Program-made: the position numbers and the translations under genes | Shown: positions 23,832 through 43,902 of the stretch, piece by piece | Position numbering within the stretch: the stretch's first letter is position 1 | Layout of the letters: each line of letters begins with the position of its first letter | Notes under the pieces: generated by a model | Seen by the model: only the letters and a program-made list of their open reading frames with translations | Database searches by the model: none | What the model was told of the DNA's origin: nothing | Assembly (NCBI GenBank): GCA_026989335.1 | Contig: JALSJN010000040.1 | Span: 1-64,000, forward strand | From: Thiotrichaceae bacterium | GTDB lineage: Bacteria; Pseudomonadota; Gammaproteobacteria; Thiotrichales; Thiotrichaceae | Length of the DNA stretch: 64,000 nt | Direction: 5' to 3'

Positions 23832-25967
23832 TTAAACTCGTTTTCTTGTTAAAAATCCAACAAGCAATAATGCGAATAAAAGAAAGTCTGTTGAGCCTGC
23901 TGACTTTTCCTTCTGTGTCTTTTTGTTAACCGATTTATCCAATAATTCATCTTCAGGCCCTACTTCAGGGGCATCTTCGGTACTGCCTAAAGTAAGTCTA
24001 GTATTTTTATTGGAGATAGCGAAAAAGATATTATCGCTACATTTTACTTTGAATCTTGCCTGATAAACTTCTGGCAAGCTTGTTTCTAAAAAGACACTCG
24101 CGCTACCAGAATTAGGGACATGCTTAACGAGACTATGAGCAAAGCTGTAACCACCATCGGTAGATAATGAAAGATCAACACTATCACAGCTAACGGGTGC
24201 TTTATTGGTATTGGCTACATTCCATTTAACGGTGTGATTTTTTCCTAAAGCATAATAAGCGCGTGGCTTTTCAAGTGCAAAGCGACTGCCTGTACGTTTC
24301 ACATTAATTTTCATGGCATCGCTGCGTGCTGAATTGAAGCCATCTTGTACGACAAATTTGAAATTAAGCTCACGAGTTTCTGTGGGTAACGTTTCACCTT
24401 TAATTTCTTTGCCTGGTAATAAACTATCTAAACTAGGAAAAGTGCGGCTGGCATTATTATTTAACACATACGCTCTAAATAAAGCATTATCGCCTTTATC
24501 CTCACCATCAAAAGAATCTGACCCTGCATCCACTTGTTGCCAGCCATACACCAAACTATCGCTGTCAGAGTCTTGTGCATTTCCTGTTAATTCGAAAGGC
24601 GTTCGTGCTGGAATGGTGTAATCTATCCCGGCATCTGCAATCGGTGCTTGATTTAATTTGCTGCTGCGCACGCCACATGTTGCCCCCAAGCCTTGTTGAG
24701 TATAAGACCTGATCTGTTCAATGCTGCCAATATGAAACATCGCATCTGAATTTGACTGCAAGTTATCCACACCACAAGAGCCTGCATAAGCCATAACCGA
24801 TGAGCCGCTACCTGGCTCAAATGAACTAAAGTTAGTGCGTGTACCCGAACACGAGCCTTCAGTGCTGTTAAAAGTATGTGTTGCACCGAGTTGATGACCA
24901 ATTTCATGGGCAACAAAATCAATATTAAAGCTATCATTAAAAGGATTGGTAATACCAGAAACACCCAAGGCTTTACGCGAATCATTACAAAGACTAGCAA
25001 TAGCTGCTACACCACCACCGCTATTAGTGGTAAATAAGTGACCAATATCGTAGTTTTGCGAGCCAATAACGTGATCTGTATTCAGTTGATTTTGGTTAAT
25101 TAAGCTTATAGGGTCTTTCGCATCATAAGGGTCAGATTCGGCATCGGTATAAATAATCAAATCATTATTTTCAACTAGTGTTAAGTGGATACCTAAGTCT
25201 CTCTCATAGACTTGATTAACGCGCGCTAAGGTCGTTGAAATTGCGGCTAATGCACTGGCAACCGTACCGCCTGATTTTTTAACATATTCACCTGTTGCTG
25301 CTATCGCAATACGATAATTAATTCGTGTTGATGTGGGGTTAAGTTTGGCTTTAATACCTGCAAGGCTGGTATCGTTTACTAGGCTCTGAGACGCAATCCC
25401 TGGCATCATTGGGTTTGTAGAACTTGCATGGTCAACACCGCAGGAATAACTTTTATCTTGGTGTTGATCATGTTTTTTGTAAGTTACGTAAGTGTTAGCC
25501 GTTGTCTCTGAGCGCGAAACAGGATCAATAAAAATTGTTTCGCCATTACGCAATTGCAACATGCCGTGAAAACCTTTTTCTGTCATATCTAAACGACCAG
25601 AAATAAGCTGTTGATTAGGTAGCACGCGGTAAGATTGAATGTCGGGGTATTTGTTTGCTAACGCTGCAGGTAGGATATTATCTGACTCAATAGTCACTGC
25701 AATCATTCCACCAGTTGGCAATGGTAAATTAATTGACTGAGGCTGTTGAAGCGCGTCCCCCATACTTGCTTCATTTAAGGTTAACGTTCTTGCATTATGG
25801 TGTGTTTCTTTTATAGCGCTAATCTGCGAAACGCCTAGGGCTAACGTTTTAAAATTCTTGGTAGTCGGCACAACATCTTGCCATAAAGACTCATTCGCCG
25901 AAACGCTTAGGTTAAATGTTATAGCGGTAAATAATGTTAGTAATGTTAGTAATTTTAGTGTTTTCAT
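23832..25967 (-). CDS. secreted reprolysin-like zinc metalloprotease
   Basis: 711 residues. A signal peptide (MKTLKLLTLLTLFTAITFNLSVSA) is followed by a propeptide-like region to about residue 200 and then the catalytic domain. That domain has HEIGHQLGATH (H354, E355, H358, H364), the extended zinc motif of metzincins, and a Met-turn SVMAYAGSC. Paired cysteines (CSGTR, GSCG, CGVR) resemble PF13583-type reprolysins. A PKD/Ig-like region follows (ADAGIDYTIPARTPFELTGNAQDSDSDSLVYGWQQ). The C-terminus SAGSTDFLLFALLLVGFLTRKRV is a hydrophobic helix with a basic tail, like a GlyGly-CTERM/rhombosortase-type sorting signal. It is likely an extracellular or surface-attached protease. Confidence 0.88.
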   Translation of the reverse strand: MKTLKLLTLLTLFTAITFNLSVSANESLWQDVVPTTKNFKTLALGVSQISAIKETHHNARTLTLNEASMGDALQQPQSINLPLPTGGMIAVTIESDNILPAALANKYPDIQSYRVLPNQQLISGRLDMTEKGFHGMLQLRNGETIFIDPVSRSETTANTYVTYKKHDQHQDKSYSCGVDHASSTNPMMPGIASQSLVNDTSLAGIKAKLNPTSTRINYRIAIAATGEYVKKSGGTVASALAAISTTLARVNQVYERDLGIHLTLVENNDLIIYTDAESDPYDAKDPISLINQNQLNTDHVIGSQNYDIGHLFTTNSGGGVAAIASLCNDSRKALGVSGITNPFNDSFNIDFVAHEIGHQLGATHTFNSTEGSCSGTRTNFSSFEPGSGSSVMAYAGSCGVDNLQSNSDAMFHIGSIEQIRSYTQQGLGATCGVRSSKLNQAPIADAGIDYTIPARTPFELTGNAQDSDSDSLVYGWQQVDAGSDSFDGEDKGDNALFRAYVLNNNASRTFPSLDSLLPGKEIKGETLPTETRELNFKFVVQDGFNSARSDAMKINVKRTGSRFALEKPRAYYALGKNHTVKWNVANTNKAPVSCDSVDLSLSTDGGYSFAHSLVKHVPNSGSASVFLETSLPEVYQARFKVKCSDNIFFAISNKNTRLTLGSTEDAPEVGPEDELLDKSVNKKTQKEKSAGSTDFLLFALLLVGFLTRKRV

Positions 25968-26121: not shown

Positions 26122-26151
26122 CTGACCGCTGGTGCAAAGCTCCGTTATAAT
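26122..26151 (+). promoter_or_regulatory. predicted promoter of the zinc-ribbon/primase-HAD unit
   Basis: -10 TATAAT (26146-26151) preceded by CTGACC (26122-26127) with an 18-bp spacer. AGGAGAG follows about 15 bp before the ATG at 26209. The -35 match is moderate. Confidence 0.5.
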
Positions 26152-26208
26152 GCGCACTCTGTCGGTGAATTTAAGCGTTAAATAGTTTTAGGAGAGAGAA
26201 ATCAATCT

Positions 26209-26754
26209 ATGAATAGTGAGTTTAAATTAGTACTTTATCCAGTAGATTCAGGGTTGGAAATCGACCTAGATAACTTACGGAAGCACCTAGATAGTCTCGC
26301 GTTGTTAGGGGCTGAACTTGTTGATTTACTAGGGGCTGATCATTATACCGTGGGCGATAAGTTCTTATCCTATTTCACCTTTATGGGCTGCTCTCCTGAT
26401 ATTGAGCTAGAACCACAAACAGATAAACCCTTTTGCTATTTAGCCTTGGAGAGCTTTTTACAGCCACAATTTGTTTTGGGCAGTAACGTAAAAAAGGCGC
26501 GTTGTACGTCGTGTAAACATGATCTGCAAGAAATCACTAATTCTCTTAATTGCTCACATTGCGATAAGCCATTACAACTGGATAAAATCAATTGGCGCAA
26601 AAGTGCTTTTATCGCAAAAACATGGATTAGCATTGGTAATATTTATGAGCTAGAAGCGATTCCGAATGATGAATTACTCGACAGTTTAAAACGGCTAACG
26701 AGCGTACAATGGAAGCCTGCTTACATCCGAAATGCAAAATTAATAGAAGTTTAA
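26209..26754 (+). CDS. zinc-ribbon protein of unknown function, partner of the primase-HAD gene
   Basis: 181 residues. The N-terminal 90 residues are an alpha/beta stretch without a family I can name (FKLVLYPVDSGLEIDLDNLRKHLDSL; FLSYFTFMGCSPDIELEP). A zinc ribbon follows with CTSC and CSHC pairs 16-17 residues apart, and then a 60-residue C-terminal segment (WRKSAFIAKTWISIGNIYELEAIPNDELLDSLKRLT). It is the first gene of a tight operon: 3 bp separate it from the primase-HAD gene. A zinc ribbon next to a primase-like gene suggests a nucleic-acid or protein-binding accessory factor, but this is inference. No signal peptide; cytoplasmic. Confidence 0.65.
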   Translation: MNSEFKLVLYPVDSGLEIDLDNLRKHLDSLALLGAELVDLLGADHYTVGDKFLSYFTFMGCSPDIELEPQTDKPFCYLALESFLQPQFVLGSNVKKARCTSCKHDLQEITNSLNCSHCDKPLQLDKINWRKSAFIAKTWISIGNIYELEAIPNDELLDSLKRLTSVQWKPAYIRNAKLIEV

Positions 26755-26757
26755 ACA

Positions 26758-27999
26758 ATGGCAACCAAACACGAAATTATCGGCGAAGAATGGAAAGAAC
26801 GAGCCACCGAGCTTGCGGAATGGGCGATGCAAAACATGGTCAACCGCAAAGATGTGTGGGGCCAATATTCAGTTCTTACCCCCAGTGAACGCATTAAAGA
26901 AGGCAGAAGTTACAAAGCCATGACGCTACCGCGCAAAGACATGCGCGGTGAAGATATGGTAACGCTGGATAAACTCACCCGCCATTTTGCGAGCCGTCAT
27001 CATCACAAACCACAAATTATCGGCTTGCATGAAAAATCCAAAGAAACGACCAGTAAATGGTTGGGCATTGATATTGATTGCCACGATAGTGACTCCGTGG
27101 CGGCTGAAGACCATGCACGTCGTAACTTAAATGGTGCGCTAAAGTGGTGGCGTGATTTTCAAAAAATGGGTTATGACCCTCTATTAATAGACACCAACGG
27201 CGCAGGTGGTTATCACCTATGGGTATTATTTAGAGAGCCTGCGCCCACCGAAGATGTGTACATGTTGGCGAAAAGTTTTGTGACCCAGTGGGAGGGCAAT
27301 AACTTAGATGAAGAGCCAGAAACGTTTCCCAAAAAAGTGAAAGAAGGTAGCTTAGGCTCATGGTTTCGCTTGCCCGGCTTGCATCATACTAAGGAGCATT
27401 ATGGCAAGGTGTGGAGTGGTGATGATTGGCTCGATGACCCATGGCTTGATGGCCACGCAGCGATAGATGCGATCATAAGTGTAGTCCCTGGGCCGCCACC
27501 GCCCAAAGCAGATAAGCAAGATTTAAGCCCACGAAAAACCAGACGTTCTACCTTAAAAGAAGAACCTGTTAAAACTAAAAAAGCTAGCGCCCGCCGCAAT
27601 AACTTTAAATCAACCGGTAAATCAACCATCTGCCTCGACCTTGACGGGGTACTCGCTGATCGTACTTATACCAAAGGAAAAACAGCTATTGGTGAGCCGA
27701 TTGATGGCGCGGTGGACTTTACGCGGGAACTTGCCGAATTTTCTAAAATCTTAATTTTAACCGCACGTTTTTCTGAGATGAAAACTCAGCAAGAAACCGA
27801 AAAAATGGAAACATCCATAAAAGCGTGGCTCGATAAACATAATTTTAGCTACGATGAAATTTGGACTAAATCAGCCAAGCCACCTGCACAAGCCTATATT
27901 GATGATCATGGGGTATATTGCTGCCCGAAAAAAGAAGGGATTGGAGCGTTTAAAGCGGCCGCTAAAGCTACCAAATATTTACTAAAGATAAAAGATTGA
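26758..27999 (+). CDS. fusion of AEP/PrimPol-like domain and HAD phosphatase
   Basis: 413 residues in two domains. Residues 1-240 resemble archaeo-eukaryotic primases: WLGIDIDCHD gives the metal-binding pair D105/D107, DTNGAGGYHLWVLF gives the GYH motif with H153, and SWFRLPGLHHTKEHYGKVW (about 201-219) is a basic/His motif seen in related bacterial proteins. A Lys/Arg/Pro-rich linker (245-285) leads to a minimal HAD domain. It has motif I DLDGVLAD (nucleophile D294, D296), motif II LTARF (T335), motif III lysine in KSAKPPA and motif IV YIDDHGV (D382/D383). The lack of a large cap suggests a polymeric or nucleotide substrate. A primer-synthesis plus end-processing enzyme is plausible but unproven. 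It lies just upstream of ruvCAB. Confidence 0.7.
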   Translation: MATKHEIIGEEWKERATELAEWAMQNMVNRKDVWGQYSVLTPSERIKEGRSYKAMTLPRKDMRGEDMVTLDKLTRHFASRHHHKPQIIGLHEKSKETTSKWLGIDIDCHDSDSVAAEDHARRNLNGALKWWRDFQKMGYDPLLIDTNGAGGYHLWVLFREPAPTEDVYMLAKSFVTQWEGNNLDEEPETFPKKVKEGSLGSWFRLPGLHHTKEHYGKVWSGDDWLDDPWLDGHAAIDAIISVVPGPPPPKADKQDLSPRKTRRSTLKEEPVKTKKASARRNNFKSTGKSTICLDLDGVLADRTYTKGKTAIGEPIDGAVDFTRELAEFSKILILTARFSEMKTQQETEKMETSIKAWLDKHNFSYDEIWTKSAKPPAQAYIDDHGVYCCPKKEGIGAFKAAAKATKYLLKIKD

Positions 28000-28292: not shown

Positions 28293-28796
28293 ATGAGAAT
28301 AATAGGAATAGACCCAGGGTCGCGGATTACCGGCATAGGCATTATTGAAAGTGATGGCCGTCACAGCAAGCATATATTTAGCACTTGTATTCGCTTAGGC
28401 ACAGCTAATTTTCCTGAGCGCTTAGGCAAGATATATCAAGAAGTTGAGCTTTTGATTCGTGAGTTTCAACCACAGCAAATGGCGATTGAAGAAGTATTTT
28501 TATCAAAAAACCCGCAGTCTGCTTTAAAATTAGGTCAAGCACGCGGAGCTGCTATTTGTGCTACGGTGATGCAAAATGTGCCTGTTTTTGAATACAGTGC
28601 CCGAGAAATTAAACAGGCAGTTGTCGGCAAAGGCAGTGCTGATAAGTCACAAGTCCAGCACATGGTAAAATTACTGTTAAACTTGCAAGGTAAAATTCAA
28701 GAAGATACCGCTGATGGGCTTGCAATCGCATTAAGCCATGCGCATGTCGGGGCAACGAAAATACGTTTACAAAAAGCATTAGCAGCAAATGGATAA
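28293..28796 (+). CDS. ruvC: Holliday junction endonuclease RuvC
   Basis: 167 residues starting MRIIGIDPGSRITGIGII, with the first catalytic Asp (D7). AIEEVFLSKNPQSALKLGQARG supplies the catalytic Glu, and DTADGLAIALSHAH the C-terminal Asp pair. The enzyme cleaves Holliday junctions made mobile by RuvAB. Three bases separate its stop from the ruvA ATG. The window shows no yebC directly upstream. Confidence 0.97.
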   Translation: MRIIGIDPGSRITGIGIIESDGRHSKHIFSTCIRLGTANFPERLGKIYQEVELLIREFQPQQMAIEEVFLSKNPQSALKLGQARGAAICATVMQNVPVFEYSAREIKQAVVGKGSADKSQVQHMVKLLLNLQGKIQEDTADGLAIALSHAHVGATKIRLQKALAANG

Positions 28797-28799
28797 ATT

Positions 28800-29402
28800 A
28801 TGATTGGACGATTACGCGGTACGGTACTTCACAAACAAGCCCCTGATTTATTACTGGATGTGGCAGGTGTGGGTTATGAGTTATTGGCATCAATGACGAC
28901 CTTTATCGACTTGCCAGAAATTAATAATGAAGTTATTTTATTTACCCATTTAATTGTGCGTGAAGATGCCCACACTTTGTATGCCTTTAGTTCAGAAAAA
29001 GAACGCGCACTATTTCGCTTACTTTTAAAAGTAAATGGTGTGGGGCCTAAAATGGCCTTAGCGATTGTCTCTGGAATGACGGCGAATGAATTTGCAGAGC
29101 GGGTTCATTCGGGGGATGTTGTAGGTTTAACCAAGCTCCCTGGTGTTGGTAAAAAAACAGCGGAACGATTAATTATAGAAATGCGTGATCGTTTACCAGA
29201 GCCGAACGAAACATCAGAGTCGGGAGATTTATTAACACACACAAGCCCAAGAAAACTTGAAAATGAAGCTGTTGAAGCACTTTTAGCGTTGGGTTATAAA
29301 CCCGCTCAAGCAAGTAAAATGGTAGCACTATCACTTAAAAATAATTCAACATCGTCGGTAGAAGAAATCATACGTAATGCACTTAAGGCCAGTCTTTCAT
29401 GA
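28800..29402 (+). CDS. ruvA: Holliday junction branch-migration protein RuvA
   Basis: 200 residues. [27 protein letters not shown] opens the OB-fold domain. Two helix-hairpin-helix motifs follow ([45 protein letters not shown]), and a C-terminal helical domain ([20 protein letters not shown]) contacts RuvB. RuvA binds the four-way junction as a tetramer and loads RuvB. It overlaps ruvB by 4 bases (ATGA). Confidence 0.97.
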
Positions 29403-30463
29403 GTACATTTGACGACTTAGATGATCTGAATGACGGTTTAAGTGAAAATGGAAGGCTTATTTCACCTGTCGCGGGGTTGGAAGAGACAAGTAATGAACAA
29501 GAAGAACAAATTCGCCCTAAGTTTTTAAAAGACTATATCGGCCAACCTGTGGTGCGTGAGCAGATGGAAATATTTATTCCGGCGGCAAAAGCACGTGGTG
29601 ATGCACTTGATCATGTGCTGATTTTTGGCCCTCCGGGTTTGGGTAAAACCACGCTGTCACATATTATTGCCAACGAGCTTAGCGCAAACTTACGCCAAAC
29701 CTCTGGCCCCGTGCTTGAAAAAGCGGGTGACCTTGCTGCACTGCTGACAAATTTAGAGCCGCATGACGTTTTGTTTATCGACGAAATTCATCGCCTCAGC
29801 CCGGTTATCGAAGAAATACTTTATCCCGCTATGGAAGATTTTCAGTTGGATATTATGATTGGTGAAGGCCCCGCTGCGCGCTCTATTAAACTTGATTTGC
29901 CGCCTTTTACGTTAATTGGTGCTACCACAAGAGCTGGTCTATTAACCTCACCGCTACGTGATCGCTTTGGCATTGTGCAGCGACTTGAGTTTTATAACGT
30001 AGAAGATTTAACCTATATCGTCACCCGTGCCGCAGGAATTTTGAATGTGGAGATTAATAAGCCTGGATCGACAGAAATTGCGCGCCGTGCTCGTGGAACA
30101 CCGCGCATTGCAAATCGACTACTACGCCGAGTACGAGATTATGCGCAAATTAAAGCTGACGGAAAAATAACCCAAAATATCGCGAATAACGCTTTAAATA
30201 TGCTAAATGTGGATGACCTAGGTTTTGATCATATGGACCGGCGCGTATTGCTCGCTATTATGGAAAAGTTCGATGGTGGCCCAGTCGGGGTTGAAAGTGT
30301 GGCTGCCGCAATAGGTGAAGAGCGCGGAACCATTGAAGATGTAATAGAACCTTTTTTGATTCAGCAAGGGTTTTTAATGCGAACTCCACGCGGCAGAATG
30401 GCAACGCGACATGCTTGGCAGCACTTTGGGTTAACAGCTCCAAAGGATGAGTCACAAATATAA
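29399..30463 (+). CDS. ruvB: Holliday junction DNA helicase RuvB
   Basis: 354 residues. After a short acidic leader come [22 protein letters not shown], Walker [23 protein letters not shown], Walker [27 protein letters not shown], sensor 1 [21 protein letters not shown] (with the arginine finger) and the winged-helix end [25 protein letters not shown]. The ATP-driven hexamers pull DNA through the RuvA-bound junction. Last gene of the ruvCAB operon, converging on avtA. Confidence 0.97.
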
Positions 30464-42303: not shown

Positions 42304-43902
42304 CTAGCTTTTATTGGCAATAAGAATGCCTTGCCAAAATTCTTGTGCCGTTTCTTCTGAGCCAAAATAACGAATTAAACGCTGTTCACCTTTTTCTAAT
42401 AAATCTGGCATATTCACTAATGCTTTTTGTAGCTCGATCTTTGCTTTTTCGATCTCGTCTAGTTTTACATAAGTCATGCAACGCACCATTTCACCACTAA
42501 ATAAAATGGGTGCGTCAATAATCAGCGCTATCTCTAAAGCTCTTTCATAATTACCTTTTAGATACTCATCACAAAAAGGAACCACATTGAACCAGCTGGG
42601 GTAATTAGAAGAAAGTGCTAATACTTTGTGAATTAACTCCATGCCTTGCTCGCGCTCCCCCATCATAAAGAGGTGGAAGCCAACACCAAACTCAATATAA
42701 GCATGGTACTGACAAAGATCTCGGGTAATTTTGAACTCATTTAAAGCATGTACTCTTTCATCCAAACAAAAGAGTATTTGCCCTAAGGCATAGTGCGCTT
42801 CATGGCTATCTGGTTTTGAGTTGATTGCCCTTAGCGCACATAACCTGCCTAGCTCTAAGGAGATTTTAGGATCAGTAAAGGTATAGACATAATTACGCCG
42901 ACAAAGGTCTGCTAAAATAATATTGCTTATAACGTCACTGGGGTTTTTTTCTAAGTAACGTTGGCACACATCAACACTTTTTTGTAACGCAGCTACGCTT
43001 AAATTATCAATATATTTTCTATAATACACAAGTGCTTTAAATTGCTCAGGAATAGTAGACTCATCTTGCATCAGCTTTTTAACCCAATGTTGGTATAAAA
43101 TCCCTTGTTGAATATCGCTAGCAGCAGCAGTAATACTGCCAATAATGGTTTGTTGCTTGTGAAAAGGCACTTCGCTATCGATGTCATAGGTCTCTGACCA
43201 AATAATCTCTTTTGATTCAACATCTATTATTCGGCACAGTAACAAGTGCCCATCTTTAGGAAGTTGCTGAATACAAAATACCAGCATGTAGTCAGCTTGG
43301 AAGCGCTCTCTAATTTCTGACGCGGCAAAAAGTGTGTCACTCTTATCGCCATGCGGGATTAAAATAACAATTCTTGCTAATATAAAGCGACTAAGCTCTT
43401 TTGCTAAAGTATCCGTTACATGAAAAACTAAACGGTTACTTTCATCATTTTGTGTTCTATCTGAATAACACATCACGGCGAGCTTGGGAGCTAGAGAATA
43501 GCTTTCACTCACCAACTCTTTTTTAGGAATTAAGTTTTTAGCAAAAGAAGGCGTATAATGACCTTTAGGTAATGTGATGCGAAGTGAATCAGCAAGCCCT
43601 TCTTTTTTATAATAGTCTTCCAGCTTTTTGCGTATTCGACCCGCATTAATACGAATCGCAGGGTTGGTATCAGAATCAAAGGTTTCTGCATAACCTAAAC
43701 CTTCTACAGCAATGGTGTACTGTTTAAGTTGTTCACTTTCTCCAACCAAAGCTTTACCAATAATAAATTGAAGAAACTTTTTTTGTTGTGCCGCATTCTT
43801 AAAATAACTACTCGTTAATATCTTACGTAGTTGATTATTAATCAGCACACAATCATCTTCACTTAATGATTTTAGGTCGATAATGTCTTGGTTATTAGCC
43901 AA
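42304..43902 (-). CDS. regulator-like protein with N-terminal AGRxRxKLxxYY domain and TPR region
   Basis: 532 residues. The N-terminal 115 residues contain LRKILTSSYFKNAAQQKKFLQFIIGKAL, YTIAVEGLGYAETFDSDTNPAIRINAGRIRKKLEDYY and LPKGHYTPSF, a winged-helix-like domain that begins many bacterial TPR proteins. The middle (about 120-265) resembles the TolB-N-like segment of adenylate-cyclase-type regulators. The C-terminal half is tetratricopeptide-like (SHEAHYALGQILFCLDERVHALNEF; AYIEFGVGFHLFMMGEREQGMELI). No membrane segment. It lies directly downstream of the narK-type transporter on the same strand, with 283 bp between, and may regulate nitrate genes; that link is positional only. Confidence 0.65.
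   Translation of the reverse strand: MANNQDIIDLKSLSEDDCVLINNQLRKILTSSYFKNAAQQKKFLQFIIGKALVGESEQLKQYTIAVEGLGYAETFDSDTNPAIRINAGRIRKKLEDYYKKEGLADSLRITLPKGHYTPSFAKNLIPKKELVSESYSLAPKLAVMCYSDRTQNDESNRLVFHVTDTLAKELSRFILARIVILIPHGDKSDTLFAASEIRERFQADYMLVFCIQQLPKDGHLLLCRIIDVESKEIIWSETYDIDSEVPFHKQQTIIGSITAAASDIQQGILYQHWVKKLMQDESTIPEQFKALVYYRKYIDNLSVAALQKSVDVCQRYLEKNPSDVISNIILADLCRRNYVYTFTDPKISLELGRLCALRAINSKPDSHEAHYALGQILFCLDERVHALNEFKITRDLCQYHAYIEFGVGFHLFMMGEREQGMELIHKVLALSSNYPSWFNVVPFCDEYLKGNYERALEIALIIDAPILFSGEMVRCMTYVKLDEIEKAKIELQKALVNMPDLLEKGEQRLIRYFGSEETAQEFWQGILIANKS

Follow-up and report, generated by a model that had tools for sequence, protein, structure and literature searches.

Results

The window carries an AEP-HAD fusion gene

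The window analysed here, a stretch of 64,000 nt from a Thiotrichaceae bacterium (genome G000), contains two open reading frames on its plus strand that are separated by a gap of 3 nt and that agree in length and spacing with the original prediction. The first (26209..26754) encodes a 181-aa zinc-ribbon protein with two CxxC pairs, which reached no family cut-off in family searches and which we place outside the module described below. The second (26758..27999) encodes a protein of 413 aa that, based on its ORF and on Pfam, PHROG and PDB profile matches, joins an AEP primase-polymerase domain to a HAD phosphatase. A sigma-70-like promoter match (CTGACC-18-TATAAT, 26122..26151, plus strand) lies 5' of the zinc-ribbon gene, which is adjoined by a gene for a reprolysin-like metalloprotease (23832-25967; PF13583, E 1.4e-38). 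The ruvC-ruvA-ruvB-like genes at 28293..30463 on the same strand, named from their sequence rather than by family search, are neighbours by position.

The N-terminal half of the fusion protein matched the Pfam AEP-TOTE family PF22548 over residues 68-211 (26959..27390; E 1.5e-6) with 28.4 bits, which exceeds the curated cut-off of 27 bits. It carries motif I of the DxD type (DID, 27070-27078), motif II of the xxH type (GYH, 27208-27216) and, 3' of motif II, an ETFPKK...LPGLHH segment. A profile built from nine fusion sequences matched the CRISPR-associated Prim-Pol chains 7nqf/7nqd in the PDB over residues 86-212 (E 4e-5), in an alignment that pairs DID105-107, GYH153 and the ETFPKK...LPGLHH segment. 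An absence of the AEP fold was thus not borne out, as judged by sequence profile rather than by a structure model of the fusion. The C-terminal part, in which residues 282-398 (27601..27951) were delimited as the HAD domain by PHROG and PDB matches and invariant residues, matched PHROG 1238 (HAD phosphatase, E 7.5e-14) and PHROG 415 ('polynucleotide kinase', E 1.2e-6), and the nine-homologue profile matched the HAD structure 1xpj over residues 289-386 (E 1.7e-6). Across the nine fusion homologues, D105, D107 and H153 of the AEP domain as well as D294, D296, T335, K374, D382 and D383 of the HAD domain are invariant, the latter providing the DxD, T/S, K/R and acidic motif IV residues of the HAD superfamily. 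The original prediction of an AEP-HAD fusion was thereby borne out. PADLOC returned only marginal matches for the fusion.

Intact fusion homologues were found in six of 57 related genomes, the window's own genome counted, and in addition in Alphaproteobacteria and Verrucomicrobiota. A sister genome, G004, retains a decayed copy that is interrupted by several stops and has lost a large internal part (L046:2131-2715, G004:C168).

The zinc-ribbon gene and ruvCAB are neighbours rather than partners of the fusion

The zinc-ribbon gene is present in 20 of the 57 related genomes regardless of the fusion, and co-occurrence of the two was not significant (Fisher P = 0.17, 57 genomes). The two lie directly together in the window genome and its nearest relative G001 alone, as against two intervening genes in G006 and separate contigs in G025, which comes close to their never being found together. 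In relatives, the zinc-ribbon gene neighbours groES/groEL, hfq/hflX-type genes, reprolysin and others (names from sequence), and relatives of the reprolysin-like gene adjoin it also in G006, G007 and G010. On its distribution, its varied neighbours and the Fisher test, the zinc-ribbon gene was rejected as a partner of the fusion; the pairing of the two as a unit is not conserved, and the suggestion that the zinc-ribbon protein guides the fusion enzyme is not supported. The claim that the pair has its own promoter did not hold up either: while the match at 26122-26151 is good individually, the region contains three promoter-like sites as compared to 5.4 expected from shuffles. Likewise, ruvC does not neighbour the fusion at any other fusion locus examined, and the proposed link to ruvCAB recombination was rejected on this basis.

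K1, K2 and a DNA ligase co-occur with the fusion

Inspection of fusion loci in other genomes revealed three recurring neighbours, encoding two proteins termed K1 (~210 aa, 'MARSLTF...LDFGML') and K2 (~240 aa, 'MANINLTDPRKRDAVVKAES...') and an ATP-dependent DNA ligase. In the window, the fusion is the sole gene of this module. In the window genome, K1 (G000:C68:40409-41032), K2 (G000:C51, about 42809-43684 including its tail) and the ligase (G000:C51:46539-48002) reside on contigs other than that of the fusion.

K1 and the ligase were each found in all six genomes with an intact fusion and, among the other relatives, in G013 alone (Fisher P 1.9e-7, n=57), and K2 in five of these six and in G013 (Fisher P 8e-6, n=57), counts that stem from a small sample and are not independent, as five of the six fusion genomes belong to one genus. 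The exception for K2 is G002, whose assembly is split into 490 contigs and gave no K2 match. Independent support for the co-occurrence comes from the Alphaproteobacteria, Verrucomicrobiota and G025 cases. Ligase matches in G039 and G054 (E 3.5e-5 and 7e-4) are weak and fall in genomes with canonical Ku, and were therefore assigned to other ligases. G004, with its broken fusion, has neither K1, K2 nor the ligase.

The genes are arranged as fusion-K1-K2-(HEAT/UPF0149/SEC-C gene)-ligase in G006 and as fusion-K1-(Imm33-like gene)-K2-ligase in Hellea (Alphaproteobacteria, L013). G002 and L012 each have the fusion directly beside K1, module genes are adjacent or close also in G011, G025 carries a compact K1-K2-ligase arrangement, and in G278 K2 abuts the ligase. 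In the Verrucomicrobiota, G783 has both the fusion and K1-K2-ligase, and K1, K2 and the ligase are tightly packed into an operon in two genomes in which a profile search detected no fusion. K1-K2-ligase without the fusion occurs also in G399 and in G013, in which the fusion search gave a match to the HAD part only. Because G013, G399 and the two Verrucomicrobiota lack the fusion, K1-K2-ligase is the core of the module and the fusion an accessory. The four proteins diverged in step, their pairwise identities correlating with r 0.96-0.99.

The module is rare among the genomes sampled: K1 was found in three of 369 gammaproteobacterial genomes, and K2 in one of 398 genomes from the phylum, in one of 249 from the order of Hellea and, as true matches, in three of 388 from the phylum to which the Verrucomicrobiota genome G783 belongs. 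A weak K2 match in G1127 was discarded as chance, the protein resembling a ribosome-hibernation factor by sequence. Where viral contigs, phages and plasmids were searched, the fusion drew matches to its HAD part only and no full-length relatives, and K1 and K2 had no relatives; a viral or plasmid origin was rejected for this reason.

Several other genes recur at these loci. An endonuclease/exonuclease/phosphatase (Exo_endo_phos) gene (PF03372; L074:7766-8476, L078:5523-6236, L080:2-664) accompanies the ligase in three genomes, lying 3' of it in that of the window and in G025 and in its vicinity in G011, and may be a fifth module member, supplying a further nuclease. In the genus of the window genome, a HIT-family gene and a SnoaL-like gene recur close to the fusion or to K1 (L041:12536-13427, L075:3445-4329, L044:2287-3285, L046:2772-3730, L048:7365-8290); as the pair is present also in G007, a genome without the module, the two are probably mere neighbours with no role in it. 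A 373-aa uncharacterised protein and a helicase-like protein are encoded 3' of a Verrucomicrobiota K1-K2-ligase operon (L110:8527-10699, G1104:C16). Visual inspection of the loci that were read picked out no TOTE helicase or nuclease genes.

The partner ligase is closest to NHEJ ligases

The ligase combines an invariant KxDG adenylation motif (K68-x-D70-G71) with an OB domain (DNA_ligase_A_C, PF04679; E 1.8e-10), the features that define an ATP-dependent DNA ligase, and matched the PDB entry 3rr5 (E 6e-19). Among NCBIfam models, it matched TIGR02779 (NHEJ ligase) best, with E 1.9e-13 and, for the Verrucomicrobiota ligase, E 2.3e-18, although its score of 50.3 bits falls far below the curated cut-off of 227.75. 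A weak match to the RNA_ligase model was also observed, and PADLOC gave no match. A LigD-type fusion of LIG to POL and/or PE was not seen: at every locus read, the ligase stands as a gene of its own.

Structure models of K1 and K2 point to Ku

The K1 and K2 members tested matched no Pfam, NCBIfam or PADLOC family. Neither protein matches the Ku sequence profiles (PF02735/TIGR02772), and profile-profile comparison with 18 Ku sequences was not significant (K1, E 0.23; K2, E 0.076). None of the seven relatives with the module that were searched for canonical Ku (PF02735) has it (G000, G001, G002, G006, G011, G013 and G025).

An AlphaFold2 model of K1, built from ten sequences and of moderate quality (pLDDT 67), retrieved Ku or Ku complexes as all of its top 50 Foldseek matches on the PDB, the best being B. 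subtilis Ku (E 7.4e-6), and aligned with Ku at a VIA Z of 11.4 and an rmsd of 2.2 Å over 97 residues. In a viral library, phage Ku proteins were its top two matches, with a clear gap before the next. The K1 model was matched as well by the barrels of SPOC, Integrator INTS13/14 and Med25, at Z 8.5-9.7. The model of K2, built separately from that of K1, is poor (pLDDT 44); its first 34 Foldseek matches on the PDB were Ku (best E 4.2e-4), and its Z of 7.7 against Ku lies inside the range reachable by unrelated models. Taken strictly, K1 and K2 are therefore predicted Ku/SPOC-type barrels for which Ku is the best match. The main argument for Ku, at the level of models, is that two mutually dissimilar and separately modelled proteins both point to it beside an NHEJ-like ligase.

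The C-terminus of K1 (e.g. L075:4410-5036) pairs an acidic linker with a hydrophobic tip that is strongly conserved (LDFGML, FDFDML or EFDMM), an arrangement kept from Gammaproteobacteria to Verrucomicrobiota. It is likely a docking motif and, as a lead only, recalls the C-terminus of Ku80. An SSB-like identity of K1, suggested by the acidic tail, was dropped after the fold search. K2 of the window genome, G001 and G025 ends in a long lysine-rich tail (about 45% K in the window genome), a feature also found in some bacterial Ku.

Discussion

We consider it likely that the AEP-HAD fusion acts as the end-processing enzyme in a dispersed NHEJ-like system of double-strand-break repair, together with K1, K2 and the ligase. 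In the system that we infer, K1 and K2 would bind DNA ends in a Ku-like manner as a heterodimer, two different Ku-fold proteins forming a ring on each end. The acidic tail of K1 with its LDFGML-type tip may recruit partners or anchor DNA, as may the lysine-rich tail of K2 in some species. The HAD domain would then strip blocking 3'-phosphates, the AEP domain would fill gaps, and the separate ATP-dependent ligase would seal the break. In eukaryotes, it is the HAD domain of PNKP that removes blocking 3'-phosphates. The original prediction of an enzyme for end cleaning and for gap filling or priming gains strength from this context, as the partners conserved with the fusion comprise a DNA ligase and two proteins modelled as Ku-like. 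Extending the proposal to a bacterial NHEJ lineage with an obligate heterodimeric Ku of K1 and K2, a stand-alone ligase and sometimes an AEP-HAD fusion, beyond the reach of Ku sequence models, is a step on which we are evenly divided.

In bacterial NHEJ, a homodimeric Ku recruits LigD, in which polymerase and ligase are combined with a phosphoesterase that generates 3'-hydroxyl ends (PMC8656161, PMC12784961). The module resembles this POL-PE-LIG set in its AEP-type polymerase, its putative 3'-end phosphatase, its ATP-dependent ligase with NHEJ ligases as best family, and its predicted Ku-fold partners. It differs in having two distinct Ku-like proteins without recognisable Ku sequence in place of a homodimer, a separate ligase, a polymerase that matches TOTE/CRISPR-PrimPol models, genes that are scattered in some genomes, and a HAD domain that replaces the unrelated PE domain of LigD, whose job it is proposed to do. 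By sequence, K1 and K2 do not belong to Ku, and the module, with its unfused ligase and HAD in place of PE, is not LigD. Paired Ku genes are known from rhizobia, such as Sinorhizobium Ku3/Ku4-LigD4 (PMC12844678). On rhizobial plasmids we found two adjacent Ku genes, in one case near ligD, an arrangement that recalls the neighbouring K1 and K2 genes; however, the two rhizobial proteins that were tested belong to TIGR02772 as ordinary Ku (E about 1e-84) and are used with LigD, whereas K1 and K2 match neither TIGR02772 nor PF02735.

Eukaryotic NHEJ (Ku70/80, PNKP, Pol X, ligase IV) works with two different Ku proteins, an end phosphatase of the HAD type and an unfused ligase. The module is similar in its two different predicted Ku-like subunits, its HAD phosphatase and its stand-alone ligase. 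In contrast to Ku70/80, K1 and K2 are too short for vWA domains and show no sequence similarity to it; moreover, the polymerase of the module is an AEP rather than a Pol X enzyme, and no kinase domain was found. A description of such a K1-K2-ligase/AEP-HAD system was not found in the open-licence literature.

The four genes might instead serve a repair or ligation process other than NHEJ, for instance at nicks, gaps or RNA ends, with K1 and K2 as beta-barrel adaptors of the SPOC/Ku superfamily that form no ring on ends. The matches of the K1 model to SPOC, INTS13/14 and Med25, the weak RNA_ligase match and the lack of a sequence link between K1/K2 and Ku fit such a role, but bacterial and phage Ku head the K1 lists in two libraries, Ku heads that of K2, and the ligase has a DNA_ligase_A_C OB domain and NHEJ ligases as its best family, so that we regard this explanation as unlikely. 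Still more improbable is a conflict system against phage or plasmid DNA akin to TOTE or CRISPR-Prim-Pol systems, a defence role having been raised by the original prediction and having found no direct evidence here. Its appeal derives from the AEP domain, which is closest to AEP-TOTE and CRISPR-associated Prim-Pol (7nqf/7nqd) and shares their motif set and FPK...P.G.H segment, from the Imm33-like gene within the Hellea locus and from the patchy distribution. Unlike these relatives, however, the AEP domain of the fusion is joined to a HAD phosphatase and tracks a ligase and Ku-like genes, partners that point to joining; PADLOC recognised neither K1, K2 nor the ligase and the fusion only marginally. 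A two-gene zinc-ribbon and AEP-HAD unit tied to ruvCAB recombination, as the 3-bp spacing in the window and the close pair in G001 might suggest, is scarcely credible given how widely the zinc-ribbon gene occurs without the fusion and beside other genes, their separation in G006 and G025, and the fusion loci without ruvC.

Returning to the NHEJ-like reading, surveys for NHEJ seek Ku and LigD by sequence, and genomes such as that of the window would be counted as NHEJ-less. A survey of bacterial NHEJ that relied on sequence profiles (PMC7719229) would probably miss the K1/K2 system. Our analysis suggests functions for two unannotated protein families, K1 and K2, and for the AEP-HAD architecture, and the fusion probably belongs to an unrecognised bacterial system that rejoins broken chromosomes. 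If true, this would represent a second, hitherto unrecognised form of bacterial end joining, built on a pair of distinct Ku-like subunits, would provide compact new end-joining enzymes, and would bear on a possible origin of the Ku70/80 heterodimer.
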